DNA of 50,091 nucleotides, taken from an uncultured Pirellulaceae bacterium (lineage in GTDB: Bacteria; Planctomycetota; Planctomycetia; Pirellulales; Pirellulaceae). The stretch's first letter is position 1; every line of letters begins with the position of its first letter. This document shows, piece after piece, positions 4,457-36,176 of this stretch. The stretch covers positions 1 to 50,091 of the forward strand of contig CALKNI010000077.1 in the NCBI GenBank assembly GCA_938091115.1, given 5' to 3'. The position numbers and the translations under genes are program-made. The notes beneath the pieces are model-generated. The model had not been told where the DNA came from. It saw only the letters and a list, made by a program, of their open reading frames with translations, and ran no database searches.

Positions 4457-4524
4457 TAAGCCAATCACGATTTTTATGTGACGTTGCGCTCCGGTGCAGG
4501 AACTTGTGTCAAAGGGAAACCAAA

Positions 4525-5922
4525 ATGAAGCTAGTCCTGATTTTATTTTTTTCTTTACTGTGTGGAGTCGGCATTGCGCAAGAGCGGGATCAGCCTAATC
4601 TCATTGTCATTTTCTGCGACGACCTTGGATATGGAGATCTCGGTTGTTATGGGTCGGAAAAGAATCGAACTCCCAATGTTGACCAGTTAGCCAAGGCGGG
4701 GATTAAGTTTACAGATTTTTATTCTTCCAGCCCTGTGTGTACGCCGTCACGCTCAAGTTTGATGACCGGCTGTTATGCTCGTCGCGTTGGGATGCATGAA
4801 GATTACACGGGGCACTGGGTCCTTATCCCGCGCAGTCGGCGAGGATTAAATCCAGAAGAAGTCACTATTGCTGAAGCACTCCAGTCGGCAGGTTATGCGA
4901 CGGCCTGTATTGGAAAGTGGCATCTGGGAGATCAGCCTGAGCATTTGCCCACGCAACACGGATTCGATTTCTATTTTGGGATTCCCTATTCCAACGACAT
5001 GCAATCCAAGCGACGGGGGGATCCACCACTCCCATTGGTAAAACAGCGTACGGTTATTGAAGCACCGGTTGACCAGTCCACGTTGACCAAGCGTTATACG
5101 GAAGCGGCAATTGCTTTCATCACGGAAAACAAATCGAAGCCATTCTTTGTTTATTTGCCGCACACGTTTCCCCATCTTCCTTTATTCGCATCTCCAGATT
5201 TTCTGGGAAAAAGTGCCAACGGTCGGTACGGGGATTCCATTGAAGAGATTGATTGGTCGACAGGTCAAATCCTAGCCAGTCTTGATCGTCTGGGAATTGC
5301 CGATAACACATTAGTCATTTTTACGTCCGACAATGGGTCCAACGGTCGCAATGGTGGTTCCAATCAACCACTCTCAGGAATGAAAGGATCGACGATGGAG
5401 GGAGGGATGCGGGTTCCGATGCTGGCGAAATGGCCGGGCCGAATCAAGCCAGGCACCGTTTGTAACGAACTGGCGACCACGATGGATTTGTTACCCACCT
5501 TTTGCAAATTGGCTGGCGCTAAAATGCCCGAGCAAAAAATAGACGGATTCGATATTACGAATTTACTGTTAGGCAACGACGGTGCGAAGTCAGAATATGA
5601 ATCGTTTCTGTATTATCGTCGTCGACAATTGCAGGCGATTCGGATGGGAGACTGGAAGTATCATCTTCCTCTTAAGGCAATACATCCAAATTGGACAACT
5701 CCTAAAACGGAGGCCCCCGGACGTCCAGCGAAATTAGTTAACTTAAAAGATGATCTAGGTGAACTGAACGACGTTTCCCAGGCGAACCCGGATGTGGTGG
5801 CAACAATGCAGGTAATCGCACGCAAAGCGATCGAAGAACTTGGCAACGATAGCAACCAAGGCACTGAGCAGCGGTCTGCATTGACACTTGAATTGTCGGC
5901 GCCGATGGTTCTAAAAAAATAG
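4525..5922 (+). CDS. Secreted type I sulfatase (arylsulfatase family S1)
   Basis: Hydrolyses sulfate esters, probably on polysaccharide. The signal peptide (MKLVLILFFSLLCGVGIAQ) precedes NLIVIFCDDLGYGDLGCYG, which supplies the calcium-binding aspartates. The maturation motif CTPSR has its Cys at residue 72 and would be converted to formylglycine. GKWHLGD, the H-P-F-HLP region (LPHTFPHLP) and FTSDNGSNG complete the active site. At 465 residues it is of normal length. The ATG at 4525 begins the leader; an upstream TTG (4504) is less likely. It follows the glycosidase-like gene closely and ends at a strong hairpin (5940-5981). No formylglycine-generating enzyme lies in the window, so maturation depends on a gene elsewhere. 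Confidence 0.95.
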   Translation: MKLVLILFFSLLCGVGIAQERDQPNLIVIFCDDLGYGDLGCYGSEKNRTPNVDQLAKAGIKFTDFYSSSPVCTPSRSSLMTGCYARRVGMHEDYTGHWVLIPRSRRGLNPEEVTIAEALQSAGYATACIGKWHLGDQPEHLPTQHGFDFYFGIPYSNDMQSKRRGDPPLPLVKQRTVIEAPVDQSTLTKRYTEAAIAFITENKSKPFFVYLPHTFPHLPLFASPDFLGKSANGRYGDSIEEIDWSTGQILASLDRLGIADNTLVIFTSDNGSNGRNGGSNQPLSGMKGSTMEGGMRVPMLAKWPGRIKPGTVCNELATTMDLLPTFCKLAGAKMPEQKIDGFDITNLLLGNDGAKSEYESFLYYRRRQLQAIRMGDWKYHLPLKAIHPNWTTPKTEAPGRPAKLVNLKDDLGELNDVSQANPDVVATMQVIARKAIEELGNDSNQGTEQRSALTLELSAPMVLKK

Positions 5923-7576: not shown

Positions 7577-9442
7577 TTATGGCCCTTTGATAAGCTCGAC
7601 GTCGGTGAAGTAGGCTCCTCCTACATTGCCTTGGGCATCAAACAGCCATGTTCTGAGTTGTGTCTTTCCTTTGGGAAGTTCAACTTCGAATACCTGGCCA
7701 AGGGTTCCCGGTTCGATTTCCGATTCTAGCGTTACTCCAGCAATTTCGATTTTTCCTCGAACCGCTTTGACCGGTCTGCTCGCCAGTTCAGGCCATTGGC
7801 GAAGTGTGATTCGATAGCGTCCGGGTGTTCGGGCATTCACCATCCACGGGCCCGTGACAGGCACTAGTTTGTTGATTTGTCCAAAATTCCAAGGAGGATT
7901 GCCTAATGGCATGTACCAATCCTGAGAACAGAGAGCCGTCGGATTTTCGGCTGGGCTTCCGAGATCAATGGAAACCGGAGTGATCCGGGGAGAGACGGAC
8001 TCCCAAAACGGGAGGTAGTAAGATTTTAGTTTTTTGACGATTTCTGGTTGTTGATCAGCGATGTTTTTTATTTGTTCTGGATCGGACTGAAGATCGTAAA
8101 GTTCTTCGCCATTAATTAAACGCCATTGGTCTTTCAGGATGCACGAGTAGGACCACGGTTCCGGTGAAATTCTGAATTGAGGTCCACCATGGTATTGGAC
8201 GATGAGATGGTCGCGGTGGCCAGTCGCATCCGCTTCTTTCAAGGTTCTAGCAAAAGAAATACCGTCCGGTTGATAAGAAGCGGGTAATTTCAAATCACAA
8301 AGTTCTGCGAGTGTTGGCAGGACATCAATATGTGCCGCTAAATGAGGGACGGCTCTGTTTTCGTTTAGTCCGCCGCGAGGCCAGCGGATGAAAAAGGGGA
8401 CGCGGTGTCCGCCTTCGTAGATTGATGATTTTTGTCCACGCATTCCGGCGTTGTAGCCGCTGGCAAGCAAACCCGATGGTTTTTTAAAGGTTCCGCCGTT
8501 GGATGTGCCATTGTCGGTCATGAAGATCAGGATCGTATTCTCGGCGAGTCCAAGGTCGGAAAGTTTGCTCCTTAGCTTTCCCATGTTGTGATCGAAGTTG
8601 GCAATCATGCCATAAAATTCCGCTCCATTTTTCCATTTGATTTTTTCCCGGTAGGGATCACTCCAACGATCATCAACTCGATAGGGGCCGTGGGGTGCGT
8701 TGGTCGCTAGATAAAGAAAAAATGGTTTGTCCCGATTGGTTTCGACGAACTTGATGGCTTCGGAAAACCAAACATCGGTGCAGTAGCCAGTGAATTTTTC
8801 GAATTTTCCATTCCGTTCGTAGGTGTCATCGAAATAGTCGTTGCCCCAATAGTCAGACGCCTGTCCAACGCCACCGCATCGGTGCCAAAGCACATTTTGA
8901 AATCCACGATCTTGTGGCCGGTGCGGTGCATTATCACCAAGATGCCATTTTCCAAACATGCCGGTGACATATTGATTGGATGAGAACATGTCTGCGATGG
9001 TGCGTTCGTCGGGGTGCATCAGCGTCCGGCCACTGCTGGTTCGATAGGCACCCGTCCTCGCTGGATAGTGCCCCGTCATTAATGCAGCGCGTGTTGGAGT
9101 GCAAAACGAACTAACGTGGAAGTTGGTAAATCGAATCGACTCCTTGGCTAATTGATCTAAATGAGGCGTCTGTAAAATCGGATTTCCGTGACAGCTAAGA
9201 TCACCGTATCCTTGGTCGTCCGTCATCACGAGGATGACATTGGGTCGTTCCTCGGCTGAGATAGACTGCGTGCCTAGAAGGAAAGGAGTTGCACCGCAGA
9301 TGTAAATCAAGGTACCTGCCAGTGAGGTCTGAGTTCTACTTGATGGCGTGAAAACGGAACCCATTAGTAAATGGATCAATTGGAAGACGACTTTTTGAAT
9401 GACTAGCATTGTCATGGACCAATTGTAGAAAGTTATTTTCAT
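7577..9442 (-). CDS. Secreted type I sulfatase with C-terminal beta extension
   Basis: About 621 residues, longer than a usual arylsulfatase. The core shows NVILVMTDDQGYGDLSCHG (calcium aspartates), the maturation motif CTPTR (Cys at about residue 114), MFGKWHLGDN, LATNAPHGPY and FMTDNGTSNGG. The final 130 residues (from PVTGPWMVNARTPG) form an added beta domain with RYRITLRQWP, also found in other planctomycete sulfatases and possibly glycan-binding. The start is uncertain: ATG 9442 is the first ATG, but ATG 9364 (MGSVFTPSSRT) begins a cleaner signal peptide ending QSISA, and neither has a clear ribosome binding site. The next gene downstream on this strand is the acetylesterase, 182 bases away. 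Confidence 0.93.
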   Translation of the reverse strand: MKITFYNWSMTMLVIQKVVFQLIHLLMGSVFTPSSRTQTSLAGTLIYICGATPFLLGTQSISAEERPNVILVMTDDQGYGDLSCHGNPILQTPHLDQLAKESIRFTNFHVSSFCTPTRAALMTGHYPARTGAYRTSSGRTLMHPDERTIADMFSSNQYVTGMFGKWHLGDNAPHRPQDRGFQNVLWHRCGGVGQASDYWGNDYFDDTYERNGKFEKFTGYCTDVWFSEAIKFVETNRDKPFFLYLATNAPHGPYRVDDRWSDPYREKIKWKNGAEFYGMIANFDHNMGKLRSKLSDLGLAENTILIFMTDNGTSNGGTFKKPSGLLASGYNAGMRGQKSSIYEGGHRVPFFIRWPRGGLNENRAVPHLAAHIDVLPTLAELCDLKLPASYQPDGISFARTLKEADATGHRDHLIVQYHGGPQFRISPEPWSYSCILKDQWRLINGEELYDLQSDPEQIKNIADQQPEIVKKLKSYYLPFWESVSPRITPVSIDLGSPAENPTALCSQDWYMPLGNPPWNFGQINKLVPVTGPWMVNARTPGRYRITLRQWPELASRPVKAVRGKIEIAGVTLESEIEPGTLGQVFEVELPKGKTQLRTWLFDAQGNVGGAYFTDVELIKGP

Positions 9443-9741
9443 GGAGATCTTTTGCAATATCTGTGTAGGTTAGGTGATCTGTAGCATTGTTAGTTTACTG
9501 TTGCTGAAGGAGCAAGTGTTAGCAGAAACTGGCCCGCAGCACTAATTCTCCAGACTCCAAACGGTGTACTAGCCGACGGGAAGGCTAAAAACGTGACAAA
9601 TCAAACGATCGGCGGTAGATTAGAATGAACTAGGGGTGAATGTCTGCAAAGGCTTTGACTGGTAGTTGTAGCGAGGCGAAGGAAATATTTCATGAGTGCG
9701 GCGACCTAAAGAAACCAAGTATTTTGCTCGAGATTAATTTT
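9443..9741. other. Divergent intergenic region
   Basis: 299 bases between the sulfatase (minus) and the esterase (plus). An in-frame extension of the esterase runs from 9640 but has no signal peptide and looks non-coding. A small hairpin, TTGCT-GAAGG-AGCAA, lies near 9502. Promoters for both genes should be here; none is recognisable with confidence. Confidence 0.35.
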
Positions 9742-17031: not shown

Positions 17032-18855
17032 ATGAAAAAATTCTTATCGGTGTTCTTGCTGTTGTTATTGACGCTTACGGCGCGTGCAGAGAAGCCGAAT
17101 GTTATCATTATCTACTCCGACGATCATGGTTATACCGACCTCGGTATCCATGGAATTGACGCCAATGTTGACACACCCAACATGGACGCGCTCGCCCGAG
17201 GGGGTGTTCTGATGCGTGCTGGATACAGCTCGGCCCCCCAGTGTCGCCCATCTCGATGTGGGCTGTTGACGGGACGTATCCAAAACGAGTTCGGGTTTGC
17301 TGACAACAAGGCCGATGCTGGATCTGGTGTTGGGACCCTGCCAAGGATCTATCCGTCGGGAACGGATATGGCGGGTAAGCCTCTTCTTACAATCGCTGAT
17401 CGAATGAAGCAGCTAGGTTACGTTACCGGATTCTCCGGCAAATGGCATTGCGGACTCAATCACGATCCAAAAAAAGAGTACGATCCGCGGAGTCGTGGTT
17501 TTGATGAGTACTGGGTTGCACCAATGACCAATGGCTATACCAATCTCGATCTCGAAGGAAATCTGATTCCGCACCAGAAAAAAGCGGAGTGGCCGAAAGA
17601 ACTTCAAAACCGCGTCATCTTGCAAGGTAAATTCGCCGAGGCGTTTGTTTCCCGCAACAAGGACAAGCCATTTTTCTTGTATTTCCCGATCTATGGTCCG
17701 CACGTACCGATGATTAAGAAGTCGGATCCCTACTACAAGGATTTTCCGAAGCAAGATTATCCGAACTATAACGACCAGCAAGATGATGTCCGACGTCAAG
17801 GCTTGGCGTTGCTCAAGGCAATGGATGATGCGGTCGGTGGACTGGTGAAGACATTGCAACAACATGGCCTCGAGGAAAATACGCTCATTTTGTTTGCCGG
17901 TGATAATGGGGCACCGGGTAAGCAGACGCACAACAGCCCGATTGGAAGTTGGAATGGCTCGAACAACGTTCCCATGCGCGGAGTCAAAGGATGGCTGCAT
18001 GAAGGTGGGATTCGTGTGCCGATGTTTGCCTATTGGAAAGGGGAGATCCCGGCAGGTCAGGTGGTCGACGAAATGGTCACCACACTGGATTTTACGGCAA
18101 CGACAGTCGCGTTGGGTGGTGGCGCGATTCCATCGGAATTTGACGGTGTCGATTTAATGCCGCGTTTTACCGGCAGCGTCTCCAAGCTTCGCCGAGTTCA
18201 ACCGATGTATTGGGATTTTTATACGGGACAGGCGATGCGAATGGGTGACTGGAAACTGTGGCGGAAAGACGATACGACGGTTTTGTTTAACATAGCAAAC
18301 GATCCATCGGAACTGACAAACCTTGCCTATCAGCACCCCGAACGGGTAATTGAAATGAGTAAGCAACTCGATCGATGGTCCGAATCTCTACCCGATTCAG
18401 CACGTTACGATCCAGAGATGCGTGGAAAGAATATGATCAGCTCGCTTGGCGGAGCGCCCGCGAATGTCAAACCGGATCCTCGTTACTTAGTCCCTTACGA
18501 CAATCCAGTCCCGACCCCGTACCCCACGGCCGTCATTTCACCCGGCGGGCCAGCCATCATTTTTGAATCGGCGAGACCTGAAAACAAACAGGTCAAACCA
18601 AAAGAGAATGCAAAACCGGAAATGATAAAAAATGGAAAAGGAAGCACAAACCGAAGCGCAACCGGAAATCGACCTAATCTAGAGAAACTGTTCCAGCGGC
18701 GCGATCAAAATCAAGACGGTTTCGTTACGCTCGAAGAATTTATCGGTGATCCAGAAACTCGAAATGTTACTGCGTTAACCAGAGTGTTTAATAAGCGAGA
18801 TGTGAATCAGGACGGACGGCTCACACTTGAGGAAATGCAAGTTAAGCTGGATTAA
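17032..18855 (+). CDS. Secreted type I sulfatase with C-terminal EF-hand pair
   Basis: 607 residues. Signal peptide MKKFLSVFLLLLLTLTARA, then NVIIIYSDDHGYTDLGIHG (metal aspartates), the maturation motif CRPSR with Cys71, FSGKWHCG, FPIYGPHVP and FAGDNGAPG. The sulfatase fold ends near residue 470. A linker with many Lys, Pro and Asn follows, then two EF-hand-like calcium loops close to the C-terminus: DQNQDGFVTLEEF and DVNQDGRLTLEEM. EF-hand tails on secreted planctomycete enzymes may bind calcium for stability or surface attachment; that is inference. ATG 17032 begins the leader. It is monocistronic as far as visible, 233 bases before the next gene. Confidence 0.94.
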   Translation: MKKFLSVFLLLLLTLTARAEKPNVIIIYSDDHGYTDLGIHGIDANVDTPNMDALARGGVLMRAGYSSAPQCRPSRCGLLTGRIQNEFGFADNKADAGSGVGTLPRIYPSGTDMAGKPLLTIADRMKQLGYVTGFSGKWHCGLNHDPKKEYDPRSRGFDEYWVAPMTNGYTNLDLEGNLIPHQKKAEWPKELQNRVILQGKFAEAFVSRNKDKPFFLYFPIYGPHVPMIKKSDPYYKDFPKQDYPNYNDQQDDVRRQGLALLKAMDDAVGGLVKTLQQHGLEENTLILFAGDNGAPGKQTHNSPIGSWNGSNNVPMRGVKGWLHEGGIRVPMFAYWKGEIPAGQVVDEMVTTLDFTATTVALGGGAIPSEFDGVDLMPRFTGSVSKLRRVQPMYWDFYTGQAMRMGDWKLWRKDDTTVLFNIANDPSELTNLAYQHPERVIEMSKQLDRWSESLPDSARYDPEMRGKNMISSLGGAPANVKPDPRYLVPYDNPVPTPYPTAVISPGGPAIIFESARPENKQVKPKENAKPEMIKNGKGSTNRSATGNRPNLEKLFQRRDQNQDGFVTLEEFIGDPETRNVTALTRVFNKRDVNQDGRLTLEEMQVKLD

Positions 18856-20884: not shown

Positions 20885-23044
20885 ATGACGACCAAAACTA
20901 GAGAACTTGTTAAATCCGGTAGCAACTCTGCCTCATTAGTAACTCAGACTCCACTTCTCGATGCAGGAGATGTCGAAACAAAGCGTCAAGAGATCCTGGA
21001 TTATTTTCATGATACTTTTACGCTCTATGAGAGTCTCTTCGAATGTCTCGCTAATGATGAATCTTTTTATGCCCGAGCCAATCCATTACGCCATCCATTG
21101 ATTTTTTATTATGGCCACACTGCCGTATTTTTTATCAACAAACTTAATGTGGCAAACTTGATTGACCAACGAATCGATCCACACATTGAATCGACACTTG
21201 CGGTCGGGGTTGATGAGATGTCTTGGGACGACTTAAACGAACAAAATTATGATTGGCCGACCCCTGCTCGAGTGAAAGCTTATCGAGATCAGACCCGAGC
21301 CGTCGTCGACAACTTTATTCGAGAGTGCGATTTCAGTTTGCCAATTGAATGGAATAGTCCAATGTGGATTATTTTGATGGGGATTGAGCACGAGCGAATT
21401 CACTTGGAGACAACTGCTGTCCTGATACGAGAGCTGCCTCTCGAGAGAGTCGTTTCGCATCCCGTTTGGAGCAACATTTGTAGAGAAAGTGGCGTGCCTC
21501 CGGAGAACGAATTAATAGCCGTTGAGGGTGGTCAAGTTGAAATGGGTAAGTCAAAAAGTAACTCACTTTATGGCTGGGATCTTGAATACGGTTATGCTTC
21601 GGAAACAGTCAAGGATTTTCGTGCTTCGAAGTTTTTAGTTTCCAATCAGGAGTTCCTTCAGTTTGTCGAATCTGGCGGCTATCAAAACAGCGATTTCTGG
21701 ACGACCGAAGGTTGGAGTTGGGCTGAATTTCGGCGAGCCGAGCATCCAGTGTTTTGGGTTAAAGAGGGAGAGAACTTTAAGTATCGCTCAATGTTGGAAG
21801 TGATCGACATGCCGTGGGACTGGCCTGCAGAAATCAATTACCTTGAGGCAAAGGCTTTCTGTAACTGGAAGTCGGAAGCAACGGGAAAAAATATTCGAAT
21901 GCCTACCGAAGCAGAGTGGTATAAGCTTCGGGAAAGGGTCGACACAGACCAACCTTACTGGGGATCAGCCCCCGGTAATCTCAATCTTGAACATGAGATG
22001 TCTCCATGTCCCGTAAATCGACATGAGTTCGACAGCGGCTTTTTCGACGTGATTGGAAATGTATGGCAATGGACCGAGACGCCGATCGATGGGTACGATG
22101 GATTTGAAGTTCATCCTACTTACGATGATTTTTCGACACCAACGTTTGACGGGAATCACAACTTGTTCAAAGGCGGTTGTTGGATTTCAACCGGTAACTA
22201 CGCAATCAAAGATGCAAGGTATGCGTTCCGACGGCATTTCTTTCAACACTCTGGATTGAGGTATGTTGAAGCCGAGCCTCTCCCGGAGCTTGAGGTTAGC
22301 GTCTATGAGACCGATCAAATGGTTTCCAATTACATCGAGTTTCATTATGGCAAAGAGAATCTGAATCTTCCTAACTTCCCTGTGGCTTGCATTAAAGAAG
22401 TGTCTAAGCGACTGGAAGGCCAGTCGACCCAGCGAGCACTTGATATTGGCTGTGCGACGGCAAGGTCATCGTTTGAGTTAGCGAAAATATTTGACCATGT
22501 TGACGCCGTTGATTTATCCGTGCGTTTGATAGAGCCCCCCGCCAATTTGCAGAGGGCCGGTCGTCAACGCTACGTGTGTGTTGAAGAAGGGGAACTGACA
22601 CTATTTAATGAAATCCAACTGGACGATTATGAAGGCTACAAGGAAGTCAAAGACAAGATCGCTTTCATGCAAGGTGATGCTTGTAACTTGGTTGAAAAAT
22701 TCAATGATTACGACTTAGTGTTTGCAGGAAATCTGATAGATCGACTTTATGACCCAGTTATGTTCCTTGAGTCAATCAAAAGCCGGATTCGGCCGGGTGG
22801 ATTATTAGTATTGGTTTCACCCTACACTTGGTCAGAGGAGCATACGCCTCGTGATAAGTGGCTGGGTGGGTTTAAAGCCGCCACTGGAGAATCGTTCACG
22901 GCTATTGAGGGAATTGAAAAAGTGCTCGGCCCTGAATTTAAAATGGTTGGTGATCCAGTCGACTTGCCCTTCGCGCTCCGCGAAACGAAGCGGAAGTTCC
23001 AATACGGAGTGTCTGAGTTGACGGCGTGGCAGAAAGAAGCGTAG
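20885..23044 (+). CDS. ovoA: 5-histidylcysteine sulfoxide synthase / 4-mercaptohistidine N-methyltransferase
   Basis: Ovothiol A biosynthesis enzyme, cytoplasmic, 719 residues, the full three-domain architecture. A DinB-like helical domain carries the iron site: HERIHLE (H169, H173, E175; the HX3HXE motif) and an upstream His in YYGHTAVF (H78). The FGE-sulfatase-like domain spans about 205-465 with MPTEAEWYKL, FFDVIGNVWQWTE, FKGGCWIS and YAFRRHFFQHSGLRY. The C-terminal S-adenosylmethionine methyltransferase begins near 475 with the motif LDIGCATARSSFELA (519-533). The enzyme joins cysteine and histidine with oxygen to a sulfoxide; the methyltransferase would later methylate the imidazole nitrogen. 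The PLP-dependent lyase OvoB, which cuts the sulfoxide, is not in the window. The two following genes are co-directional, with gaps of 140 and 51 bases. The FGE-like domain should not be mistaken for a sulfatase maturase. Confidence 0.95.
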   Translation: MTTKTRELVKSGSNSASLVTQTPLLDAGDVETKRQEILDYFHDTFTLYESLFECLANDESFYARANPLRHPLIFYYGHTAVFFINKLNVANLIDQRIDPHIESTLAVGVDEMSWDDLNEQNYDWPTPARVKAYRDQTRAVVDNFIRECDFSLPIEWNSPMWIILMGIEHERIHLETTAVLIRELPLERVVSHPVWSNICRESGVPPENELIAVEGGQVEMGKSKSNSLYGWDLEYGYASETVKDFRASKFLVSNQEFLQFVESGGYQNSDFWTTEGWSWAEFRRAEHPVFWVKEGENFKYRSMLEVIDMPWDWPAEINYLEAKAFCNWKSEATGKNIRMPTEAEWYKLRERVDTDQPYWGSAPGNLNLEHEMSPCPVNRHEFDSGFFDVIGNVWQWTETPIDGYDGFEVHPTYDDFSTPTFDGNHNLFKGGCWISTGNYAIKDARYAFRRHFFQHSGLRYVEAEPLPELEVSVYETDQMVSNYIEFHYGKENLNLPNFPVACIKEVSKRLEGQSTQRALDIGCATARSSFELAKIFDHVDAVDLSVRLIEPPANLQRAGRQRYVCVEEGELTLFNEIQLDDYEGYKEVKDKIAFMQGDACNLVEKFNDYDLVFAGNLIDRLYDPVMFLESIKSRIRPGGLLVLVSPYTWSEEHTPRDKWLGGFKAATGESFTAIEGIEKVLGPEFKMVGDPVDLPFALRETKRKFQYGVSELTAWQKEA

Positions 23045-27427: not shown

Positions 27428-30400
27428 CTATTCAATCAGATAGGACGCACCAACTTCCCCGTTAATTCGTTGGCCTGTCTCATCTTTAGGCAGGTAAGAT
27501 CGCACGTAATCAATGCGCGCGGAGTCGGAAGACACACTGATTCGAAGATGCCCTGAGCTACTGATTACTTCACCGCGGTAGCCGTACTCTTCTGCACTGC
27601 GTACATTGCCAAAACGAGGATGCCCGGGTTGTGGAACGGCTTGGTAGACAATGCCGTCCAACTCTTCTTTTGCGTACAAATGGTCGTGACCATGAAAAAC
27701 AACGGAGACCTTATTTTGGACCAGCAAATCGTGAATTGGCAATTCCCACTTCGGTCGGTTTTTTGAAAAAGTATTGGTACCATCGAGTTCATTGCCACCC
27801 CACTCAAAAAAAGGAGCTGAGTGGACGCCACCTCGATTGTTTCGGTCTGCTCCACCTATCAAATGGTGAATGAAAACAAACTTAAATTTTGCTTTGCTTG
27901 CGCCGAGTGTATTTTCGAGCCAGCGGTACTGCTGGTCACCTAAAGTTTGGTGCCAATGATCGCCTTCTGTACGAGATTGTCCGCCCGAATACCAAAACGG
28001 ATCCAGAACGACAAAAAGGCTGTTGCCCCAATGCCACGCGTAGTAGTCTTCGACCTGGCCAACGTTATCAACGATCGCTTCATTGCCAGAGTAGAAGGGT
28101 TTCGTTTCTTTTAAGTTGGGAAACGGGTTAGGGATATACTTTTTGCGTGCATCAACAGACCAGTTTCTTGTCGGGTTTTCTAAATCCTTTTGATTATCAC
28201 GAGCCCGGTTTTTCCCACCGCCTTTGTTTTTCCCTTTTCCTCCCTTGCTGGATTCGCCGTCATGGTTTCCTAAGCAAAAGAACAACGGTGTCGAATGACA
28301 AAGTGATCCCAAATAGTATCGCTGAGCCAAATACTGTGGTTCTGCAAGCTCCGGCCGAACGTATTTGCCGGTCATGAATGTATCGCCGAGTGCTATGTGA
28401 AAATCAGATCTATCCCGCAATGCGTTGCGTAACGTTGACAGGTAAACATCGCCGCTCGTGTTTTCGTCGAGGTGCGAATCAGCCTGAACAGTAAAACGAA
28501 ACGAACTTGTTGGTGCCCGTTGCGTATGGAAAGAATAGACTTGGCTCGTTTGAATTTTCGTTTGCCCGACATCTCGATACTTGAGTTGATAAAAGTAATC
28601 TTGATTCGGCTTCAATCCATCAATTTCAATTTCGACTGGTGTTCCCGCCATTACTTTGTACGGCTTTGTGTTGGTTAAAAGATCGTCAGTCGAGTTTCCG
28701 TAGGAAATCAGTGCATCGGCATCATCGAACAACAATACACTTACAGTGATCGAAGTGTCAGTTGGGCGTCCGAGCAAAATGTCATAGTCGTGTTTGGGCA
28801 CATTGTTTGCTGGCGGCGGAGTTTCATATCCACCAAGTCGGCTTCCACCTTGGTCCTTCCCTCCGCGTTGTTGACCATTACGTCCACGGTCTCGATTCGC
28901 GTCTTCTCGATTTTCCCTTTCTTGTTTTGAGCGGCCAAGGGACATGTCATCACGGTTCTTGGCATTGCCTTGTTTCTGATTGCCAGCACGACGATTGGAA
29001 TCTCTTGTCTCGTTGCCTTCGCTGCGTTTTGCGGCATTCAATTCTGTGGTGGTGATCTTTCCGTCTCGATCACCATCCATTTTCTCAAACATTCGCCGGG
29101 CGTTGCCGACCGCTTCTTCTCGGGTTAGAACACCATCACCATCGCGATCAATTTCCTGGGAGTGCCCACGAAGAAACCCGCCCATGGCACTTTTCGAACC
29201 TCCGCGGCCCGCTAACTCTGCTCCGGTAAGCTTGCCATCGGAGTTCTTGTCATAGCTAGCGAATGCTTTCTCTGATTCGCCCACCATTTCGTCGCGGCTA
29301 ATGATCTTGTCATTGTTTCGATCAATTTCATCGGCATGGACGACAATCCAAGGCTGTCTTGGCCCGTTGCCAATCTGCCGGCCAGGCTGGCCTCGTTCTT
29401 GTTCACTGTCGCGCGATTTTTCACCGCCACGCTTTTTACCTTCGCCTTGCATCTCTCTTTCGCGAGGATTGGGCCTGTTGTCGCGCTCTCCGCTTTGTTG
29501 GGCTTTGCGATTACTCCGATTTCCCGGTCCGCGTCCGCCACGATTATTGGAGCGAACTGAAAAAGTCTCGGTGGACTTTCCTTGTTGTCCGTTGTCAAAC
29601 GTGAATTCGTAAGTCTGGAAGTCCTTTGTTTGGTAGCTCACTGACCGCGTTTCATTTTGGACTGTGTACTTCACCGATACAGATTTACCATCATCACTTT
29701 TTTTGAATCCCGTGATTGCTGCACCACGAAGTCCTCGCAAAGCCGGCCGTATACCTTCGGCCCGTGGCTGCGGATCGACCTGACCTCCACGTTCAACGAC
29801 CTCGCCATAAAACCCACCATTGAGATAGGGGTAAGTTAGAGTCGAATGATAATGGTAGTTGCCCTTTTCATCTTTGTGTCCGTTCAGCCAATCGAGTTTC
29901 GACTTACTGGCCTCCGTTTTGCTTTGAATGCCGAGAATTGGATAACCGTCGAGTGCAAAAGCAATTGGCTTTCCTATCCCGACAAATTTTTCCAAATGAA
30001 CCGGAGGAAGGTGATAGTGGTAGTCGTCTGCGCGCCCACAGTGTCCCCCGAATTCATCGAGTTCACCAGCAAGGTTCGTGTCAGTCTTTCCATCGTTCTT
30101 GATTGGATTGAAGATCGGTACTCCGTTGACGGCGAGTGCGATGGCTCCGCGAAAGAAATTAGTTTTCGCCGACATCGGCTGGTCAGTTGGAACCGGCTTA
30201 AGCGGTATTCGCCAGGCGTTATCGCCAGCGTAATTCTGAGGGATCGGAATTTGCTGTTGCCAAGCTGTAATACCGACCATCATTTCATGGTTGGGCATGC
30301 CATTGGATTCGATAAATAAATACTCGTCGTCCCAGCGAGTTTTGATGGCACTTGAGTCAACAAAGTGCTGGAAATACTGCGCAATTTTCGGCTTGGTGTC

Positions 30401-30577
30401 CTTCGCGCGGATGACTTTTCCCGCAGGCGTCAGCCAGGTTTTTGGCTCGGTGTTAAGTTGAACGATCTTCGTTTGGGAAGCCGTTGAAGGTTCATGGGAA
30501 TGACCCTCATGGGCTTGAGCAAACGACGCCAGTGCGAGGACTAGGGAGAGTGTCAGGAATTTTGTTGTGCTTATCAT
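27428..30577 (-). CDS. Giant secreted fusion: YHYH domain, EF-hands, purple acid phosphatase-like domain
   Basis: About 1049 residues. Leader MISTTKFLTLSLVLALASFA ends before a His-rich start (HEGHSHE). Residues 80-330 are the YHYH domain with GGHCGRADDYHYHLPP near 185 and GYPILG. A G/R/N-rich disordered stretch follows near 355-410, then four EF-hand loops within about 412-512 (DRNNDKIISRDE, DKNSDGKLTGAE, DRDGDGVLTREE, DGDRDGKITTTE). A second charged linker leads to a fibronectin-like domain (from about 600) and a calcineurin-type phosphatase with ADSHLDENT, LGDTFMTG, GNHDGES, FIHHLIGG and HGHDHLYA. It should be a surface or periplasmic metal-binding phosphoesterase. ATG 30577 starts the leader; the frame is open to 30757 over the preceding gene's end. 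Last gene of the sigma-linked minus series. Confidence 0.9.
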   Translation of the reverse strand: MISTTKFLTLSLVLALASFAQAHEGHSHEPSTASQTKIVQLNTEPKTWLTPAGKVIRAKDTKPKIAQYFQHFVDSSAIKTRWDDEYLFIESNGMPNHEMMVGITAWQQQIPIPQNYAGDNAWRIPLKPVPTDQPMSAKTNFFRGAIALAVNGVPIFNPIKNDGKTDTNLAGELDEFGGHCGRADDYHYHLPPVHLEKFVGIGKPIAFALDGYPILGIQSKTEASKSKLDWLNGHKDEKGNYHYHSTLTYPYLNGGFYGEVVERGGQVDPQPRAEGIRPALRGLRGAAITGFKKSDDGKSVSVKYTVQNETRSVSYQTKDFQTYEFTFDNGQQGKSTETFSVRSNNRGGRGPGNRSNRKAQQSGERDNRPNPREREMQGEGKKRGGEKSRDSEQERGQPGRQIGNGPRQPWIVVHADEIDRNNDKIISRDEMVGESEKAFASYDKNSDGKLTGAELAGRGGSKSAMGGFLRGHSQEIDRDGDGVLTREEAVGNARRMFEKMDGDRDGKITTTELNAAKRSEGNETRDSNRRAGNQKQGNAKNRDDMSLGRSKQERENREDANRDRGRNGQQRGGKDQGGSRLGGYETPPPANNVPKHDYDILLGRPTDTSITVSVLLFDDADALISYGNSTDDLLTNTKPYKVMAGTPVEIEIDGLKPNQDYFYQLKYRDVGQTKIQTSQVYSFHTQRAPTSSFRFTVQADSHLDENTSGDVYLSTLRNALRDRSDFHIALGDTFMTGKYVRPELAEPQYLAQRYYLGSLCHSTPLFFCLGNHDGESSKGGKGKNKGGGKNRARDNQKDLENPTRNWSVDARKKYIPNPFPNLKETKPFYSGNEAIVDNVGQVEDYYAWHWGNSLFVVLDPFWYSGGQSRTEGDHWHQTLGDQQYRWLENTLGASKAKFKFVFIHHLIGGADRNNRGGVHSAPFFEWGGNELDGTNTFSKNRPKWELPIHDLLVQNKVSVVFHGHDHLYAKEELDGIVYQAVPQPGHPRFGNVRSAEEYGYRGEVISSSGHLRISVSSDSARIDYVRSYLPKDETGQRINGEVGASYLIE

Positions 30578-30662
30578 TTCAAATTTCGTTTTGAGATTTT
30601 GGTGCCAAGAAATAAAGGCACTTTCGGCTTTGATAGTTTTGATTAGCGTGGTTTTGAACTGT

Positions 30663-31415
30663 CTACCTGCCCGAATCGTTTTCGCCTCGTTGCTCGCCGC
30701 GTCGTTTACCCTCTCGTTTTCCGCCTCCTCGCCGGCCTCCACCTTGGGGGACGACATCGGTCAGGCCGCGAAAATCAGGACGCTCTTTTCCGTCTGGTGG
30801 GGATTTCACAACGGTTCGGAACAGCACGACATTGTCGAGCTTGATGTTGTCGGACCAGATGAATTTGGCATCTTTGAAATCGTGATCAAAGAAGGGTGTT
30901 TTAGGTCCGACGTCCTCTTCAGTGAACTCCTTGGCGTTTGCCCAACTACTATCGTCGAATCCGATGGTATGCCAATCTTTAGGAGCGGGAATACTCTCGA
31001 CACGGGGGTTTTCAGTATCACCGTCGATGGGACCCCAAGAGAGTTTTTTGGCTTTCCAATTGGCGTTTGAAACCGTTCCATCGCCAAGCTTTAATATAAA
31101 CCCGCCATCACCGATATTGGTGTTCGCGTATTCCATTCCGGTTTTTGGGTCCGCATTGTCAATTCCCATCACGGCGATCGTCATCGGGTAGGCAGGCAGC
31201 ACATCGACTGAAACAACATTGTGTGGCACAAATTTAATTGAATCGACAGCGACAAGTTCACTGTTGATGTAAAGCTTAAACGAATTGTCAGCATAAACGT
31301 TGGCTTTGATCGTGTCTTCGATTCGGGGTTTGCGTGGCGTATTCTGCGCAAACGTTAATGTTGGAATTGCAACAGAAATGCAAATGATTGTTGTGATGAT
31401 CGTGTGCTTTGACAT
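30663..31415 (-). CDS. Secreted protein of unknown function with basic Gly/Arg tail
   Basis: 250 residues. Leader MSKHTIITTIICISVAIPTLTFA, then a beta-rich domain (ANVYADNSFKLYINSELV..., DWHTIGFDDSSWANAKEF) that resembles galactose-binding or jelly-roll modules; the FDDSSW pattern is common in carbohydrate-binding domains attached to glycosidases. No catalytic residues can be named. The last 30 residues are almost only Gly, Arg, Lys and Glu (GGGRRGGGKREGKRRGEQRG). Similar basic low-complexity segments occur in the neighbouring sulfatase, Spy-like protein and YHYH protein. It lies 85 bases before the YHYH gene on the same strand. It may bind glycan for the neighbouring enzymes; that is inference. 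Confidence 0.75.
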   Translation of the reverse strand: MSKHTIITTIICISVAIPTLTFAQNTPRKPRIEDTIKANVYADNSFKLYINSELVAVDSIKFVPHNVVSVDVLPAYPMTIAVMGIDNADPKTGMEYANTNIGDGGFILKLGDGTVSNANWKAKKLSWGPIDGDTENPRVESIPAPKDWHTIGFDDSSWANAKEFTEEDVGPKTPFFDHDFKDAKFIWSDNIKLDNVVLFRTVVKSPPDGKERPDFRGLTDVVPQGGGRRGGGKREGKRRGEQRGENDSGR

Positions 31416-31453
31416 GCTGATAATCCGGTTGATGAATTGTTGGAGACGAGTTT

Positions 31454-31558
31454 TTAAGATTGAATTAAGGTGATCAAGAAACTGAGAGCGACCGCGCTTA
31501 GCGTTGCAACGACCTTCAGAAGGATGAGCGGCGCACCGGGCGGATTTAGCTCTTGCAT
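31454..31558 (-). CDS. Possible 34-residue single-helix membrane microprotein
   Basis: ATG at 31558 opens a short frame: MQELNPPGAPLILLKVVATL followed by SAVALSFLITLIQS and TAA. The hydrophobic run of about 22 residues would cross the membrane once. It overlaps the end of the upstream microORF by 13 bases and lies within the run of same-strand genes. No homologue is known to me and such short frames arise by chance, so this is tentative. Confidence 0.35.
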   Translation of the reverse strand: MQELNPPGAPLILLKVVATLSAVALSFLITLIQS

Positions 31559-31620
31559 GTCATCAGTTTGGGAAGCAAGACACACAGAAAGACAGCGATC
31601 ATGAGAAGACGCCGCATCAT
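31546..31620 (-). CDS. Possible 24-residue secreted or lipid-anchored microprotein
   Basis: The stop of the upstream sulfatase and this start share the four bases ATGA (31620-31617), the usual sign of translational coupling. The peptide reads MMRRLLMIAVFLCVLLPKLM followed by TCKS and TAA: two arginines, a hydrophobic core and a terminal Cys in a lipobox-like position (LMTC). It might be a tiny lipoprotein or only the remains of a leader. Below the size where coding can be shown from one sequence. Confidence 0.4.
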   Translation of the reverse strand: MMRRLLMIAVFLCVLLPKLMTCKS

Positions 31621-33113
31621 CGCTTTCCTCCTTTATTCTTTTGTTTTCCACTTTTCGCCGGCTTATTCCGGCCTCCGCCACCCTTCTTTGGAACAGGGGC
31701 TTTGGCGGGGTCGTATTGCGGATTTGATACGGCCATTTGAGCGTTGACGTCTTTGAGATACTTCACCAAAGCGGAATCGAGCTTGTTAAGTATTGCAGGT
31801 TGCTGTTTTGCCAAGTCATTCTTTTCAGATACATCGGTACTGATGTCGAACAGAGCCAGTCGCCCAGTTTCATAGAACTTCATCAGCTTTAGATTACCCA
31901 GAAACAAAGCTGAATGAGGGCCGTCGCCGCTCTGGTAGTGAGGGAAGTGAAAGACCATTTCTTTTCGCGATCGTTTGACAGTGCCCTTGCCATCGTCAAG
32001 CAGGCTCGCGATGCTGCCTCCTTCGATAAGTTTGGGGAGTTTTGATTTTGAAACACCGGCCCATTCACAATAGGTTGGAAAAAAGTCGTACCCAACAACG
32101 CGTTCATGGCACCACGAATTTGCTGGTACGTTAGGTCCGCGAACGATCAGCGGACTCCGAATGCCACCTTCCCAAACGCTGCCTTTGCCACCCGAAAGTC
32201 CCGCACGTCGACCTCCGCCCGCTTTGCCTTTTCCCCCACCTCCGCCACTGCCATTGTCGGACATGTAAATCACGAACGTGTTGTCGGCGAGTCCCAGTCG
32301 ATCAATCGCATCGACCACCATACCAACGCCGGTATCTAGATTCTCGGCGATCGCGGCGCTACCGACTCGCTTGTCTTCTACGCTACCCCCAATTTTATTG
32401 GCGTACTTAGCCAATGTCGATTTCATAGCGTTTTGTGGTGCGTGCAAGGCATGCCAGGACATCTGGATATAAAACGGCTTGTTTGCCTTTTTGTTTTTTT
32501 CCATGAATGTCGCTGCACGCTTCGCCATCCCAAAGATGTCTGCAGGATTCGGATCGGCGTGCTCGAAGGCGTACTCGTTACCAATATTGCCATCACCTTC
32601 GTCGTATCCGTGAGCCGCTGGCCCGCCGCCGTTAATATGCCATTTGCCGTAATGCGCAGTTGCATAGCCGGCATCGCGAAGCAGTTCCGCGATCGTGACA
32701 TAATTGCGGTCAATTTCTCGGATATTTCGAGGTCCGATCATTTTGTACCCATCTGCGGCGGTGACGCTGCGGGCCGCTTTGGTCCAGTGCAAAGCCGCGG
32801 CACTCAGGCCCGTTTGCAAACTGATTCGGGTTGGCGCACAGACGGACGCAGGTGCGTATGCTGCTGAGAATCGCATTCCTTGTGTTGCAAGTTTCTCAAG
32901 ATTCGGCGTGTCAACGATGGCACTTTTCGACCATTCCAAATACGGATGCATTGGTACGGAAAGCCCGTTCCACGCTTGATCGTCGGACATCATGAACACG
33001 ATATTGGGTTTTTGCTTCGTTGCGACCGCCCTGTCTTGCCCGTTGACTGTTGCAGAAAACACAGCCAAGTGAAAAATTCCAAACAGTATCCAGATTGTAT
33101 TTTTTGCGATCAT
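31617..33113 (-). CDS. Secreted type I sulfatase with Gly-rich loop and basic tail
   Basis: 498 residues. Leader MIAKNTIWILFGIFHLAVFS, then NIVFMMSDDQAWNGLS (metal aspartates), the maturation motif CAPTR with Cys92, AHYGKWHINGG, MSWHALHAP and YMSDNGSGGGGG. The loop after the DNG motif is unusually rich in Gly, Lys and Arg (GGGGGKGKAGGGRRAG), where other sulfatases have a short conserved turn. The C-terminus ends in a basic tail (KKGGGGRNKPAKSGKQKNKG). ATG 33113 follows an in-frame TTG at 33116 and is preferred. It belongs to the minus-strand series headed by the sigma factor; its stop overlaps a possible microORF. The polycationic parts might hold it on sulfated polyanions. Confidence 0.93.
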   Translation of the reverse strand: MIAKNTIWILFGIFHLAVFSATVNGQDRAVATKQKPNIVFMMSDDQAWNGLSVPMHPYLEWSKSAIVDTPNLEKLATQGMRFSAAYAPASVCAPTRISLQTGLSAAALHWTKAARSVTAADGYKMIGPRNIREIDRNYVTIAELLRDAGYATAHYGKWHINGGGPAAHGYDEGDGNIGNEYAFEHADPNPADIFGMAKRAATFMEKNKKANKPFYIQMSWHALHAPQNAMKSTLAKYANKIGGSVEDKRVGSAAIAENLDTGVGMVVDAIDRLGLADNTFVIYMSDNGSGGGGGKGKAGGGRRAGLSGGKGSVWEGGIRSPLIVRGPNVPANSWCHERVVGYDFFPTYCEWAGVSKSKLPKLIEGGSIASLLDDGKGTVKRSRKEMVFHFPHYQSGDGPHSALFLGNLKLMKFYETGRLALFDISTDVSEKNDLAKQQPAILNKLDSALVKYLKDVNAQMAVSNPQYDPAKAPVPKKGGGGRNKPAKSGKQKNKGGKR

Positions 33114-33195
33114 CAAAGACTCCCAAATCCAGTTATTTCAAAATTGAAAACCTTAAAACCCAAGGGTTCAGCACAAGTAAAAACGAATCTTTTAG

Positions 33196-33990
33196 TTAGG
33201 CATCTTCATCGTTTCGCTTCTTCTCTTTGCCGTCACCTCGATCTTTTTGATTCTTTCGGTCCTTGGTTTTGCCTTCGCCTTTTTCACGCTTGCCATCGCG
33301 ATCTTCGGTTTTACCATTGCGTTTGCCATTTTTTTGCTTCTCTTCGAATGTAAATTTTTCGCCCATGATTGTTCTATATTGAGCTCGTTGATCAGGGTCT
33401 AACTCAGAAAGAATTTCTTCCTGCATTTGGTTGCGAAGTTTGGCAATTTTTGCATCCAGCTCCTCGGCCAGTTCTCCGGCTTTTACCTCAATCCGAGATC
33501 TTTGGGTTTCGGTGATCCCTAATTTTTGGGCCAAGCTTCCGTTGATCAAGGCACGCGCGCCACCCCGAGCAGAAGCCTGTGCGGCAATTTGATTTAGCCG
33601 ATCCACTTGGAAGGGCAGGAGAATGTCACTGAGTTGCTCAGTACGTTCGTTTGTACGAGCGTTGCGGATCTCGCGTCTTCTTTCTTCTCGTTCCTCCTCG
33701 GAAAGGCCCTCAAACTCCGCTTCTCTCGCTTCACGATCGTCATCTCGGTCTCGATCGCGCCCGTCATTTGCCCCTGCGAGCGATTTGATTTGTTCTTCGG
33801 TAAGTTCGAGTTCTCGCTGAACCGCTTCGATACGTAACAACTTTTGGGGATTGTCTTCCCCGCCACCATTTCGACCGCCACGTTGTTTCCCACCACGGTT
33901 ACCGCCTTGAGCCATGGCGTCAGTCACACACAGCGTCAACGCAAACAAAACTACCATGCACGGAGGGAATATTTTTAGTAATGGTTTCAT
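33196..33990 (-). CDS. Secreted Spy/CpxP-like helical protein with charged low-complexity ends
   Basis: 264 residues. Leader MKPLLKIFPPCMVVLFALTL ends near AMAQ. A Gly/Arg-rich segment (GGNRGGKQRGGRNGGG) leads into a mostly helical domain with the LTxxQ-type motif LELTEEQIKSL and the second helix LGITETQRSRIEVKAGELAE, as in the Spy/CpxP-like family often found beside planctomycete sigma factors. A DRDRDDDREAREAE stretch is strongly acidic, and the last 60 residues are Lys/Asp/Glu-rich without hydrophobics (disordered). Family members act as periplasmic chaperones or stress-sensing partners. It lies between the anti-sigma gene and the sulfatase, 77 and 82 bases away. It might sense or stabilise the envelope target. 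Confidence 0.8.
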   Translation of the reverse strand: MKPLLKIFPPCMVVLFALTLCVTDAMAQGGNRGGKQRGGRNGGGEDNPQKLLRIEAVQRELELTEEQIKSLAGANDGRDRDRDDDREAREAEFEGLSEEEREERRREIRNARTNERTEQLSDILLPFQVDRLNQIAAQASARGGARALINGSLAQKLGITETQRSRIEVKAGELAEELDAKIAKLRNQMQEEILSELDPDQRAQYRTIMGEKFTFEEKQKNGKRNGKTEDRDGKREKGEGKTKDRKNQKDRGDGKEKKRNDEDA

Positions 33991-34033
33991 CTTTTTTCTC
34001 CAATGTTATTGATTAATCTTTAGCGCCAACTTA

Positions 34034-34046
34034 AAGGCAACGCCTT
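34034..34046 (-). promoter_or_regulatory. Small hairpin between anti-sigma and Spy-like genes
   Basis: AAGGC (34034-34038) and GCCTT (34042-34046) pair around AAC. It lies in the 77-base gap after the anti-sigma gene. It could be an mRNA processing or attenuation element lowering downstream expression; evidence is weak. Confidence 0.25.
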
Positions 34047-34067
34047 CTAAAACGGCGGGCTGCGAGC

Positions 34068-35129
34068 CTATTCGCTTTGATAACTCACGCGTCGATTTGA
34101 ATCGTGGTGTGTCGTATGTTGAAAAAACTCTTCCGGCATTTCGGATTTGCCAATCAATTCAAGCAGGACTGTTTTGGGGCCGCCTTTAGCTTGTGGGAGC
34201 TTATCTAAGAGCATTTCGATAATTGTTCCAGTTTCCAAGTCGAACCAGATTTCGACATATTTTGGACCGCGATGTTCAGCAGATTTTTTCTTTGCGACTA
34301 AGCAATGCTGCCCTGAACGTGCCTCTTCAATACCTAACTCGGGATCAAGCCATTGAATGTTGTAGGCGGCACGAATCTGTTTCAAGTCATCTTGTAGGGT
34401 GATAAACGGAATCGCATGTTGATTGCCCGGCATTTCGCTGCGAAATCGTTGGACATTATCGCTCACACGTATCCGGCCTTTTGGAGGTACTGACCAGCTC
34501 GTTTTGCCGTCGCTTCCGGTAATGAACTCGTCGCCATTTTCGAAACGTCTGATCAACACATAGGAGCTCTCGCCACGAACATGCAAAAGAGCTCCATCAA
34601 CCGGAGCTTGCACTTTGCCACGGCGACGATTGCGTTCGTCCAGCACTTCGTTTCGATTCCACTTGGCACCGTGTCGCTTATTACCTCGAAATTCGAGAGA
34701 CGTGATCAAATAGGTTCGATCAGAAGATTTTCTAGCAACTTCGATCAAGCGTTCCAGCTGCGTTTCGGCAGCCAAAGCTGGCGTACCTTGCAGCATTGGG
34801 ACCACAAAAAGAGATATCAACAGCAACGCTGCAATTGATGAAAGAGCTCCTATTGCCCAGCTCAAACGTTTTTGATTCCCTCTGGAAGCGAGGAATGGTT
34901 CAAAACTGTCTTCAATACGATCATCGAGATTGCCTGCTACCTGAGTGTTTGCCTTCAACAGGCGATCGTGCAAAATGGCGAAGTCGACGTATATCTTCGC
35001 ATTTTCCGAACTTGCATTGATCCACTTTTGTAAACAATGATGTTCTTCATGACCAAGCTCTCCATCGAAATGACGGCTAACAAGCGACTCCATTTCTGGT
35101 GGTAGATCTTCAGCGTGAAATTCACTCAT
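34068..35129 (-). CDS. Anti-sigma factor with transmembrane helix and possible LolA/RseB-like sensor domain
   Basis: 353 residues. The N-terminal 85 residues (VSRHFDGELGHEEHHCLQKW, then NASSENAKIYVDFAILHDRLL) are of the kind found in planctomycete membrane anti-sigma factors. There is no complete zinc CxxC site. One transmembrane helix lies near 92-114 (AIGALSSIAALLLISLFVV). The outer part has strands such as GALLHVRGESSYVLIRR, FITGSDGKTSWSVPP and PKYVEIWFDLETGTIIEML, suggesting the open beta-fold of LolA/RseB-type sensors; this is inference from pattern only. Its ATG overlaps the sigma gene's stop (ATGA at 35126-35129), showing that they are co-translated partners. It should hold the sigma factor at the membrane until a signal appears. 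Confidence 0.8.
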   Translation of the reverse strand: MSEFHAEDLPPEMESLVSRHFDGELGHEEHHCLQKWINASSENAKIYVDFAILHDRLLKANTQVAGNLDDRIEDSFEPFLASRGNQKRLSWAIGALSSIAALLLISLFVVPMLQGTPALAAETQLERLIEVARKSSDRTYLITSLEFRGNKRHGAKWNRNEVLDERNRRRGKVQAPVDGALLHVRGESSYVLIRRFENGDEFITGSDGKTSWSVPPKGRIRVSDNVQRFRSEMPGNQHAIPFITLQDDLKQIRAAYNIQWLDPELGIEEARSGQHCLVAKKKSAEHRGPKYVEIWFDLETGTIIEMLLDKLPQAKGGPKTVLLELIGKSEMPEEFFQHTTHHDSNRRVSYQSE

Positions 35130-35650
35130 TGTGCACCTCCAGCGATTGTTTTTTGTTCAATGCACTGTTTCAAAGACGCACGGACACGTTGAAGACCTTT
35201 GGAAACAGAATTAGCCGTCATGCCAAGTTTTTTGGCAATGGCAGCAGGTTTTAAGTCTTTCTCATATCTTAAATCACAGAGTTGCCTGGCTTTATTATTC
35301 AGCTCACCAACACACTCGTTTAGGAAGTCCATGGGTTCGATTGATTGCGGTGAAACGGCAGCAAAGGCGGTCGCAAGATTTTCAACGGTTTCGGAATCAA
35401 AGAGCAACGGTTTGTTTTTATGGCTTCGAAAATAATTTCGGGTTTGATTGCGAGCGATCCCAATTGCCCATGACTTGAAAGGAAGCGAATCGTCAAAACG
35501 GTTGTAATTCTCAAGGATCGCGACGGCGACTTCTTGAAGCAAATCGTCTCTTTGACGGACATCATGGACTTGCGATGCTATGAATGCCGAAACCGCTGGC
35601 TGAGCGAGAGTCCAGTGCCGCATGGCTGTTTCGGTTTGTTTATCAATCAT
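35126..35650 (-). CDS. ECF-type sigma-70 family RNA polymerase sigma factor
   Basis: 174 residues. Region 2 is seen in DDLLQEVAVAILENYNRF and FKSWAIGIARNQTRNYFRS (core binding and -10 recognition); region 4 in LRYEKDLKPAAIAKKLG and MTANSVSKGLQRVRASL (helix-turn-helix for -35 recognition). There is no region 1 or 3, as normal for ECF factors. The type is common in Rhodopirellula-like planctomycetes. ATG 35650 is supported by AAAGG six bases upstream; the in-frame TTG at 35671 is not needed. Start of the minus-strand series to 27428. It probably drives its own series and other genes; no promoter could be recognised. Confidence 0.92.
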   Translation of the reverse strand: MIDKQTETAMRHWTLAQPAVSAFIASQVHDVRQRDDLLQEVAVAILENYNRFDDSLPFKSWAIGIARNQTRNYFRSHKNKPLLFDSETVENLATAFAAVSPQSIEPMDFLNECVGELNNKARQLCDLRYEKDLKPAAIAKKLGMTANSVSKGLQRVRASLKQCIEQKTIAGGAQ

Positions 35651-36176
35651 AAAACGCCTTTCTGCTTTCAATTAACCGATGGGAACGTTTTATGACTCGG
35701 AAAATTGAAGAATTTCTATTTTGGTTCCAAAAAGGTATCGTTCGCTAAGATTTAACACTCAAAAAACATCTTACATAGGACAGGAATCGAGGAGTGACTT
35801 CAGATTTTGAGTCGCATTTCTTACTGTTATTTCATTGAAGAACTTTTTACATCTCGTCTACGGTCACAGGGTCTTGAGTGATTAAACAGCGTGTCAGAGC
35901 TTCATCAGAGACAGGGTTAAAACGTTACTAAAACAGCTTGCTGTGAGTAGTATGTACCACGGTTTTTCAAGAAATCGTTCGAATCCAGTCAGCCCAACTT
36001 TCTCGCAGCTCAAAAGACTGGCAGTCTTCAACCGTTTGATGGTCCAAAGTGTGGTTTATGTCAGAAATTTTATTAGGTTTTTTAATTACATTCGGATAGG
36101 CTGTCGGGGAATCACTGCAAAAGCTATTTTGCTATTTTAACGCTGTAAGAGTTATCTCAATTCTCAGGGGAAAAGA
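35651..36176. other. Divergent intergenic region upstream of the sigma factor
   Basis: 526 bases between the sigma gene (minus) and a membrane protein gene (plus). A frame at 35943-36140 has no family likeness and is probably not a gene. An autoregulated ECF promoter should lie just right of 35650, but I cannot pick its boxes from one copy. The AGGGG ribosome binding site of the next gene is at 36166-36170. Confidence 0.4.

Follow-up and report, generated by a model that had tools for sequence, protein, structure and literature searches.

Planctomycetes carry exceptionally many sulfatases, and the regulation and targets of these enzymes are largely unknown. Stress-responsive sulfatases and extracytoplasmic function (ECF) sigma factors have been reported in the group (PMC2754498), and passages of a study of Porphyra-associated Planctomycetes describe co-oriented sulfatase clusters that resemble operons and change in context (PMC4807772). 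The closest regulatory systems are the sigmaE-RseA-RseB circuit, which serves envelope stress in E. coli, and MucA/MucB, which combine an ECF sigma factor, a membrane anti-sigma, a LolA-fold periplasmic sensor and an autoregulated promoter. Here we describe a locus with the same four predicted elements, situated in the window, by which we mean the whole 50,091-nucleotide stretch analyzed: contig 77 (CALKNI010000077.1) of the 4.19-Mb, 88%-complete genome of an uncultured Pirellulaceae bacterium (GCA_938091115.1), whose close relatives include a metagenome-assembled genome named Mariniblastus sp. and other Pirellulaceae and Planctomycetaceae bins. The locus is a real and apparently undescribed operon that occurs across the phylum Planctomycetota. 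The open-access literature yielded no published description of the module, subscription papers lying mostly outside that search, and nothing relevant on YHYH combined with Planctomycetes or with sulfatase. We propose that an autoregulated ECF switch drives an operon of exported proteins that would remove the sulfate and phosphate esters of a polyanion at the surface or outside the cell, and we give this explanation as a whole a probability of about 0.5.

Six genes lie on the minus strand and are listed here with their promoter and a gene remnant. Their order, their strand and the ATGA overlap of the sigma and anti-sigma genes (sigma stop TGA 35128-35126, anti-sigma ATG 35129-35127) had all been given in a sequence-only reading of this DNA, and the open reading frame (ORF) coordinates bear them out.

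35667..35699, minus strand: ECF-type promoter, -35-like GTCATAAA (35696-35689) and -10-like CGGTTAATT (35678-35670)
35126..35650, minus strand: ECF sigma factor, TIGR02989 (Sig-70_gvs1), ATG at 35650; 147.9 bits against an NCBIfam cut-off of 124.55, PF04542 also above cut-off
34068..35129, minus strand: probable anti-sigma, 4-bp overlap with sigma, assigned from its AlphaFold2 (AF2) model, its fold matches and its linkage to sigma in relatives
33196..33990, minus strand: secreted helical protein, a genus-level addition, no Pfam family
31617..33113, minus strand: exported S1 sulfatase, PF00884 (E 5e-40)
31440..31590, minus strand: remnant of a DUF5658 membrane-protein gene, intact at the same place in related operons
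30663..31415, minus strand: secreted jelly-roll protein by AF2 fold, the most conserved marker of the module
27428..30577, minus strand: exported YHYH/EF-hand/PAP-N-like/calcineurin-like phosphoesterase fusion, probable start 30577

The promoter would leave a leader of about 15-20 nt before the sigma start codon. Its consensus, GTCATrAw-N10-CGG-n-TAAGTA, has one exact match in the 4.19-Mb genome, which is the window site before sigma; with a position weight matrix built from sigma-upstream regions only, this site scores 25.9 and is the sole one in the window, and two further sites in the same genome score 16-17 (L092, L103). Among relatives, unsupervised two-box word counting found GTCAT-N17-TAAG upstream of sigma in 17 of 42 loci, against 3-4 in shuffles. 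With the derived matrix, the sigma-upstream regions of 35 out of 54 loci score above 8, a count biased upward because these regions also served to refine it, and 34 of the 35 score above 20; the 99th percentile of the shuffle background is 6.5, and 0.6% of shuffles exceed 8. Matrix sites also precede the jelly-roll gene in 3 of 24 loci that have no sigma in the examined stretch (L177, 29.4; L178, 20.9; L184, 16.2; background at a score of 15 or more, 0.27%), and one precedes a detached sulfatase, after a gap, in L190. Since this class-1 motif was not found in most sigma-less loci, not every copy of the module would use a class-1 promoter. Of additional note, the bin ErkenSummer_bin-0307 holds two module copies, one linked to sigma (L167) and one unlinked (L177), both with the promoter motif; together they are a candidate two-operon regulon within one genome bin. 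A generic sigma-70 promoter and terminator scan gave counts near chance and was not used.

A second ECF sigma class, 23-27% identical to the window sigma, is linked to the same module (L146, L147, L148, L149, L151, L153, L207, L066 and L074). In 8 of 10 second-class loci we found a different motif, TTTGTCCCC...CGACAGTA (GTCCCC...CGACAGTA), and the class-1 motif is absent there. Because sigma class and promoter motif change together, there is strong evidence from comparison of the sequences that the sigma factor would read the promoter of its own operon.

A search for the same gene order showed that it is kept within the genus, where the six genes lie on one contig in two genomes (G019 and G022) and on two contigs in G008, and G007 has the last three genes, at the edge of a contig. 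In contigs limited to one genome per species, at least 247 relatives of the jelly-roll protein were confirmed. We analyzed the loci of 80 of these together with 7 whole-genome loci, many of the contigs being partial, and counted the jelly-roll gene in 84, sulfatase in 70, YHYH in 69, sigma and the co-encoded anti-sigma in 55 each, and phosphatase in 32. The jelly-roll locus is also present in cultured species, namely Rhodopirellula sallentina, R. maiorica, R. solitaria and Stieleria tagensis. Overlaps of 1 or 4 bp join jelly-roll to sulfatase genes in 18 of 37 cases and sulfatase to YHYH genes in 17 of 37. YHYH(-EF) and phosphatase are mostly separate genes in relatives, the fusion being found in this genus and in L186. 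Two freshwater YHYH proteins (L161:12141-13961 and L163:12205-14103) have the arrangement SHD1-YHYH-PEBP instead of YHYH-EF. The recurring neighbors without a label are an EF-hand protein, a DUF5658 protein, a 415-aa unknown and genes not typical of polysaccharide utilization loci. Taking together the conserved order, the start/stop overlaps in relatives, the dedicated promoter and the presence of the same promoter at some unlinked copies, the genes would form one regulated unit; we consider it very probable that this is a single operon with a dedicated ECF sigma.

The AF2 model of the anti-sigma (predicted local distance difference test score, pLDDT, 77) has a helical N-terminus, a predicted membrane helix at about residues 89-113 and a periplasmic domain at residues 115-353 with the LolA/RseB/LprG fold. 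This predicted domain matches LolA (Foldseek E 5.8e-9; VIA Z 14.1, root-mean-square deviation 3.3 over 180 aligned residues) and RseB (Foldseek E 5e-6; VIA Z 10.5, deviation 4.2 over 175). By sequence, the window anti-sigma matched none of the anti-sigma families of Pfam and NCBIfam and nothing in the PDB.

As for the exported proteins, the sulfatase has an intact C-x-P-x-R signature (CAPTR formylglycine site, 32826-32840), and its nearest PDB sequence is 9fo1, the kappa-carrageenan sulfatase S1_16 (E 2.9e-67); the C.P.R motif is present in 81 of 93 sulfatases. Elsewhere in the window, 20885-23044 on the plus strand encodes a fusion of DinB, an FGE-sulfatase domain and a methyltransferase, which resembles the ergothioneine enzyme EgtB-EgtD and not a sulfatase activator. 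The last protein of the operon, the phosphatase fusion, comprises YHYH (29906-30214; PF14240, 50.2 bits), EF hands (29033-29269), a PAP-N-like domain (28523-28771) and a calcineurin-like phosphoesterase (27677-28501; PF00149 above cut-off). Its reading frame is open to 30757, a position within the upstream gene, and the start is therefore probably the ATG at 30577. Paired YHYH motifs recur in 59 of 60 relatives, and the metal motifs DxH-GD-GNH-GHxH are complete in all 22 phosphatase homologues; the PAP N-terminal family PF16656 gave 23.8 bits for the window protein and 29.3 for that of L148, with a cut-off of 30. The EF hands may bind calcium, as predicted from their Pfam matches, and a PDB sequence search with the C-terminal, phosphatase part gave no match. 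The jelly-roll protein, likewise without a match in the PDB by sequence, was the other structure modeled with AF2 (pLDDT 84); the model resembles an accessory domain of a GH78 rhamnosidase (VIA Z 10.8) and a Pleurotus lectin (Z about 9.8), so that the protein may be called carbohydrate-binding-like by fold, not by function.

The gap of about 201-202 bp before the jelly-roll gene contains the DUF5658 remnant (...MQELNPPGAPLILLKVVATLSAVALSFLITLIQS). The DUF5658 gene is intact (349 aa) at this place in L144 and L145, and the remnant is a trace of a once tighter operon. The helical protein has a paralogue at G000:C64 and adjoins the module in the genus only. Membership of Spy/CpxP (LTXXQ, PF07813) is not supported for it, as neither the window protein nor an orthologue matched up to E 5; the earlier label "Spy-like" for this third protein came from LTxxQ-looking strings only.

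What the four downstream proteins share is a set of disordered stretches rich in G/R/K, which we defined as 24-residue windows rich in these residues and polar overall:

33847..33909, minus strand: G/R/K-rich segment at the mature N-terminus of the helical protein
33199..33363, minus strand: K/R/G/E/D-rich C-terminal tail of the helical protein, 55 aa, net +5
32175..32261, minus strand: G/K/R-rich loop of the sulfatase, just before a conserved GGK..WEGG stretch
31620..31727, minus strand: G/K/R-rich C-terminal tail of the sulfatase, 36 aa, net +10
30666..30761, minus strand: G/R/K-rich C-terminal tail of the jelly-roll protein, 32 aa, net +4
29348..29596, minus strand: G/R/K/E/N-rich linker from YHYH to the EF hands, 83 aa, net +8
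28802..29077, minus strand: G/R/K/E/N-rich linker from the EF hands to the phosphatase, 92 aa, net +4
28157..28276, minus strand: G/K-rich insert of the phosphatase directly after the GNHD metal motif, 40 aa, net +4

In agreement with the sequence-only reading, a segment scan found such stretches in all four proteins and none in the three other sulfatases of the window (4504-5922, 7577-9457 and 17032-18855). That reading held that its proposal would fail if most secreted proteins of the genome had them. We sampled 0.91 Mb, or 22% of the genome, and scanned its 696 ORFs, with ORFs and signal peptides called by simple heuristics. Of these ORFs, 288 looked secreted, and only 9 of the 288 carry any G/R/K-rich segment; the 9 include all four module proteins, leaving 5 of 284 others (hypergeometric p = 4.5e-7), and the four are among the top five G/R/K-rich secreted ORFs. 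The same holds in relatives, where segments occur in 119 of 266 module proteins (45%) and in 11 of 25 other secreted proteins within the operon span (44%), compared with 6 of the 117 secreted proteins encoded beyond that span (5%). The Fisher p values against the outside set, 1.7e-16 for module proteins and 3.7e-6 for the other in-span proteins, were computed over 80 loci with shared ancestry ignored and are too small because the loci are phylogenetically non-independent. We therefore rejected the idea that the segments are general to secreted proteins. Two extra operon members also have them: a 170-aa protein that, apart from its EF hands, consists almost wholly of segment, and the 415-aa protein, which has a similar start. 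Three proteins in a row that carry long G/R/K-rich segments (L072:14-5685, G034:C54) lie immediately upstream of a sulfatase and phosphatase pair of the module type. The mean net charge per residue is +0.05 to +0.12 in module segments versus about 0 in hydrophilic segments from the remaining secreted proteins of the same genome, and with a charge-neutral definition, 84-94% of hydrophilic segments are net positive in module proteins across relatives versus 58% in other secreted proteins of the window's genome.

Based on these findings, we propose the following mechanism. The membrane anti-sigma would hold the sigma factor until its periplasmic LolA/RseB-fold domain senses an amphiphilic or envelope-derived ligand; from the fold we infer that the signal is lipid-like or comes from the envelope. 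Sigma, once freed, would transcribe its own operon from the GTCATrAw-N10-CGG-n-TAAGTA promoter, as sequence comparison strongly suggests. From signal sequences, motifs and folds, the exported set is predicted to comprise the formylglycine sulfatase, the calcineurin-like phosphatase, the YHYH/EF-hand protein and the jelly-roll protein, and these would probably remove sulfate and phosphate from a polyanion. The shared G/R/K-rich tails could keep the proteins together on their anionic polymer, probably a sulfated or phosphorylated glycan of the extracellular matrix; this role as matrix-retention elements is offered tentatively. A bolder version, in which the sigma factor induces an extracellular condensate of exported enzymes that are unrelated but were brought under a single promoter, their shared type of rapidly evolving, weakly cationic, G/R-rich disordered segment co-assembling with the sulfated or phosphorylated polymer and the EF hands conferring calcium dependence, seems to us decidedly improbable.

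Apart from the non-independence of the loci, several observations weigh against our proposal. Past the anti-sigma, the window genes are separated by gaps of 77-201 bp and do not overlap. No glycoside hydrolase, polysaccharide lyase or SusC/D-like protein was recognized among the recurring neighbors, TonB and SusD models not having been searched singly, and the locus is thus not an obvious glycan-use locus. The middle segment of the helical protein is acidic (net -7), so that not every charged stretch is basic, and the cationic bias of the segments is real but mild. The regulated sulfatase and phosphatase set envisaged in the sequence-only reading stands, as a single regulated unit with intact catalytic motifs; the assembly on an anionic surface that it suggested is a hypothesis. 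Segments diverge faster than domains (58-70% versus 87-90% identity in the sulfatase, jelly-roll and YHYH proteins), keeping their composition as they do so, although in the helical protein both diverge alike (69% and 72%). About half of the module proteins of relatives have no segments. Given this faster divergence and this absence, the tails may be simple linkers. A secreted EF-hand-like protein with RGG-rich linkers is also encoded outside the module in the same genome (L111:14626-15273, G000:C34); it resembles the small EF-hand member of related operons.

Three other explanations have to be weighed against our proposal. The locus could be an envelope-stress operon, whose anti-sigma would sense mislocalized lipid, lipoprotein or lipopolysaccharide and whose enzymes would remodel the cell's own sulfated or phosphorylated surface polymers, not food glycans. 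The LolA/RseB/LprG fold binds lipid or lipoprotein in solved relatives, phosphatidylethanolamine-binding (PEBP) domains are fused to YHYH in freshwater relatives, no glycan-uptake genes were seen, and sulfatases of R. baltica have been found responsive to salt stress and to heat stress (PMC2754498). However, the nearest solved sulfatase acts on carrageenan, and the module is patchy: of 392 genomes sampled over the phylum, 9 have it, which is not the pattern of a core envelope system; we regard this explanation as possible but doubtful.

The segments themselves bear on the other two. If the enzymes were secreted for nutrient scavenging, with dissolved organic matter as the source from which sulfate and phosphate are freed, the tails would be incidental flexible linkers, and both the intact metal or catalytic motifs of the two enzyme types and the fast divergence of the low-complexity tails would fit. 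Enrichment specific to the operon is unexpected for incidental linkers, though, and a recurring phosphate or sulfate transporter was not found in the neighborhood; sea water, moreover, is rich in sulfate, and scavenging is accordingly an unlikely purpose. It is similarly hard to credit that the segments arose by compositional drift, with repeat expansion in the lineage yielding G/R/K-rich stretches and their grouping being a by-product of shared ancestry. In some relatives they do vary and resemble repeats (RPPGGGGGQ), but their composition is common to non-homologous proteins of the module and not to secreted neighbors in the same genomes (44-45% versus 5%), and the recruited in-operon extras, the EF-hand protein and the 415-aa protein, carry them as well. 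Our proposal of a sigma-driven operon acting on a polyanion opens the signal, the substrate and the function of the YHYH domain to testing, since the operon comes with a promoter prediction, a sensor whose fold is known and recurring partners. That the composition of disordered segments can track operon membership over protein family is uncommon, and it can be checked in bacterial secreted proteins.

Compared with known systems, the jelly-roll protein has the same fold as the GH78 accessory domain and the Pleurotus ostreatus lectin (Z about 10), but here it stands alone, and the likeness is by fold only, with no detectable PDB sequence match. The S1_16 kappa-carrageenan sulfatase (PDB 9fo1) is the best full-length PDB sequence match of the window sulfatase and shares its C.P.R site, whereas glycoside hydrolases and transporters were not seen alongside the latter, which carries a G/K/R-rich loop and tail. 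Unlike the clusters described in passages of PMC4807772, this locus is a recurring set with sigma and anti-sigma, YHYH, jelly-roll and phosphatase genes and shared disordered tails. A LolA-fold periplasmic sensor is common to RseA/RseB and the anti-sigma described here, but two proteins there correspond to one fused protein here. The promoters differ as well: the E. coli sigmaE consensus is GGAACTT/TCTGA, and that of the present sigma is predicted to be GTCAT/TAAGTA. The anti-sigma may therefore act like RseA/RseB, but because sensor and anti-sigma are fused we do not file it as a member of that system, and the targets of its sigma factor would be exported sulfatase and phosphatase genes within the same operon.

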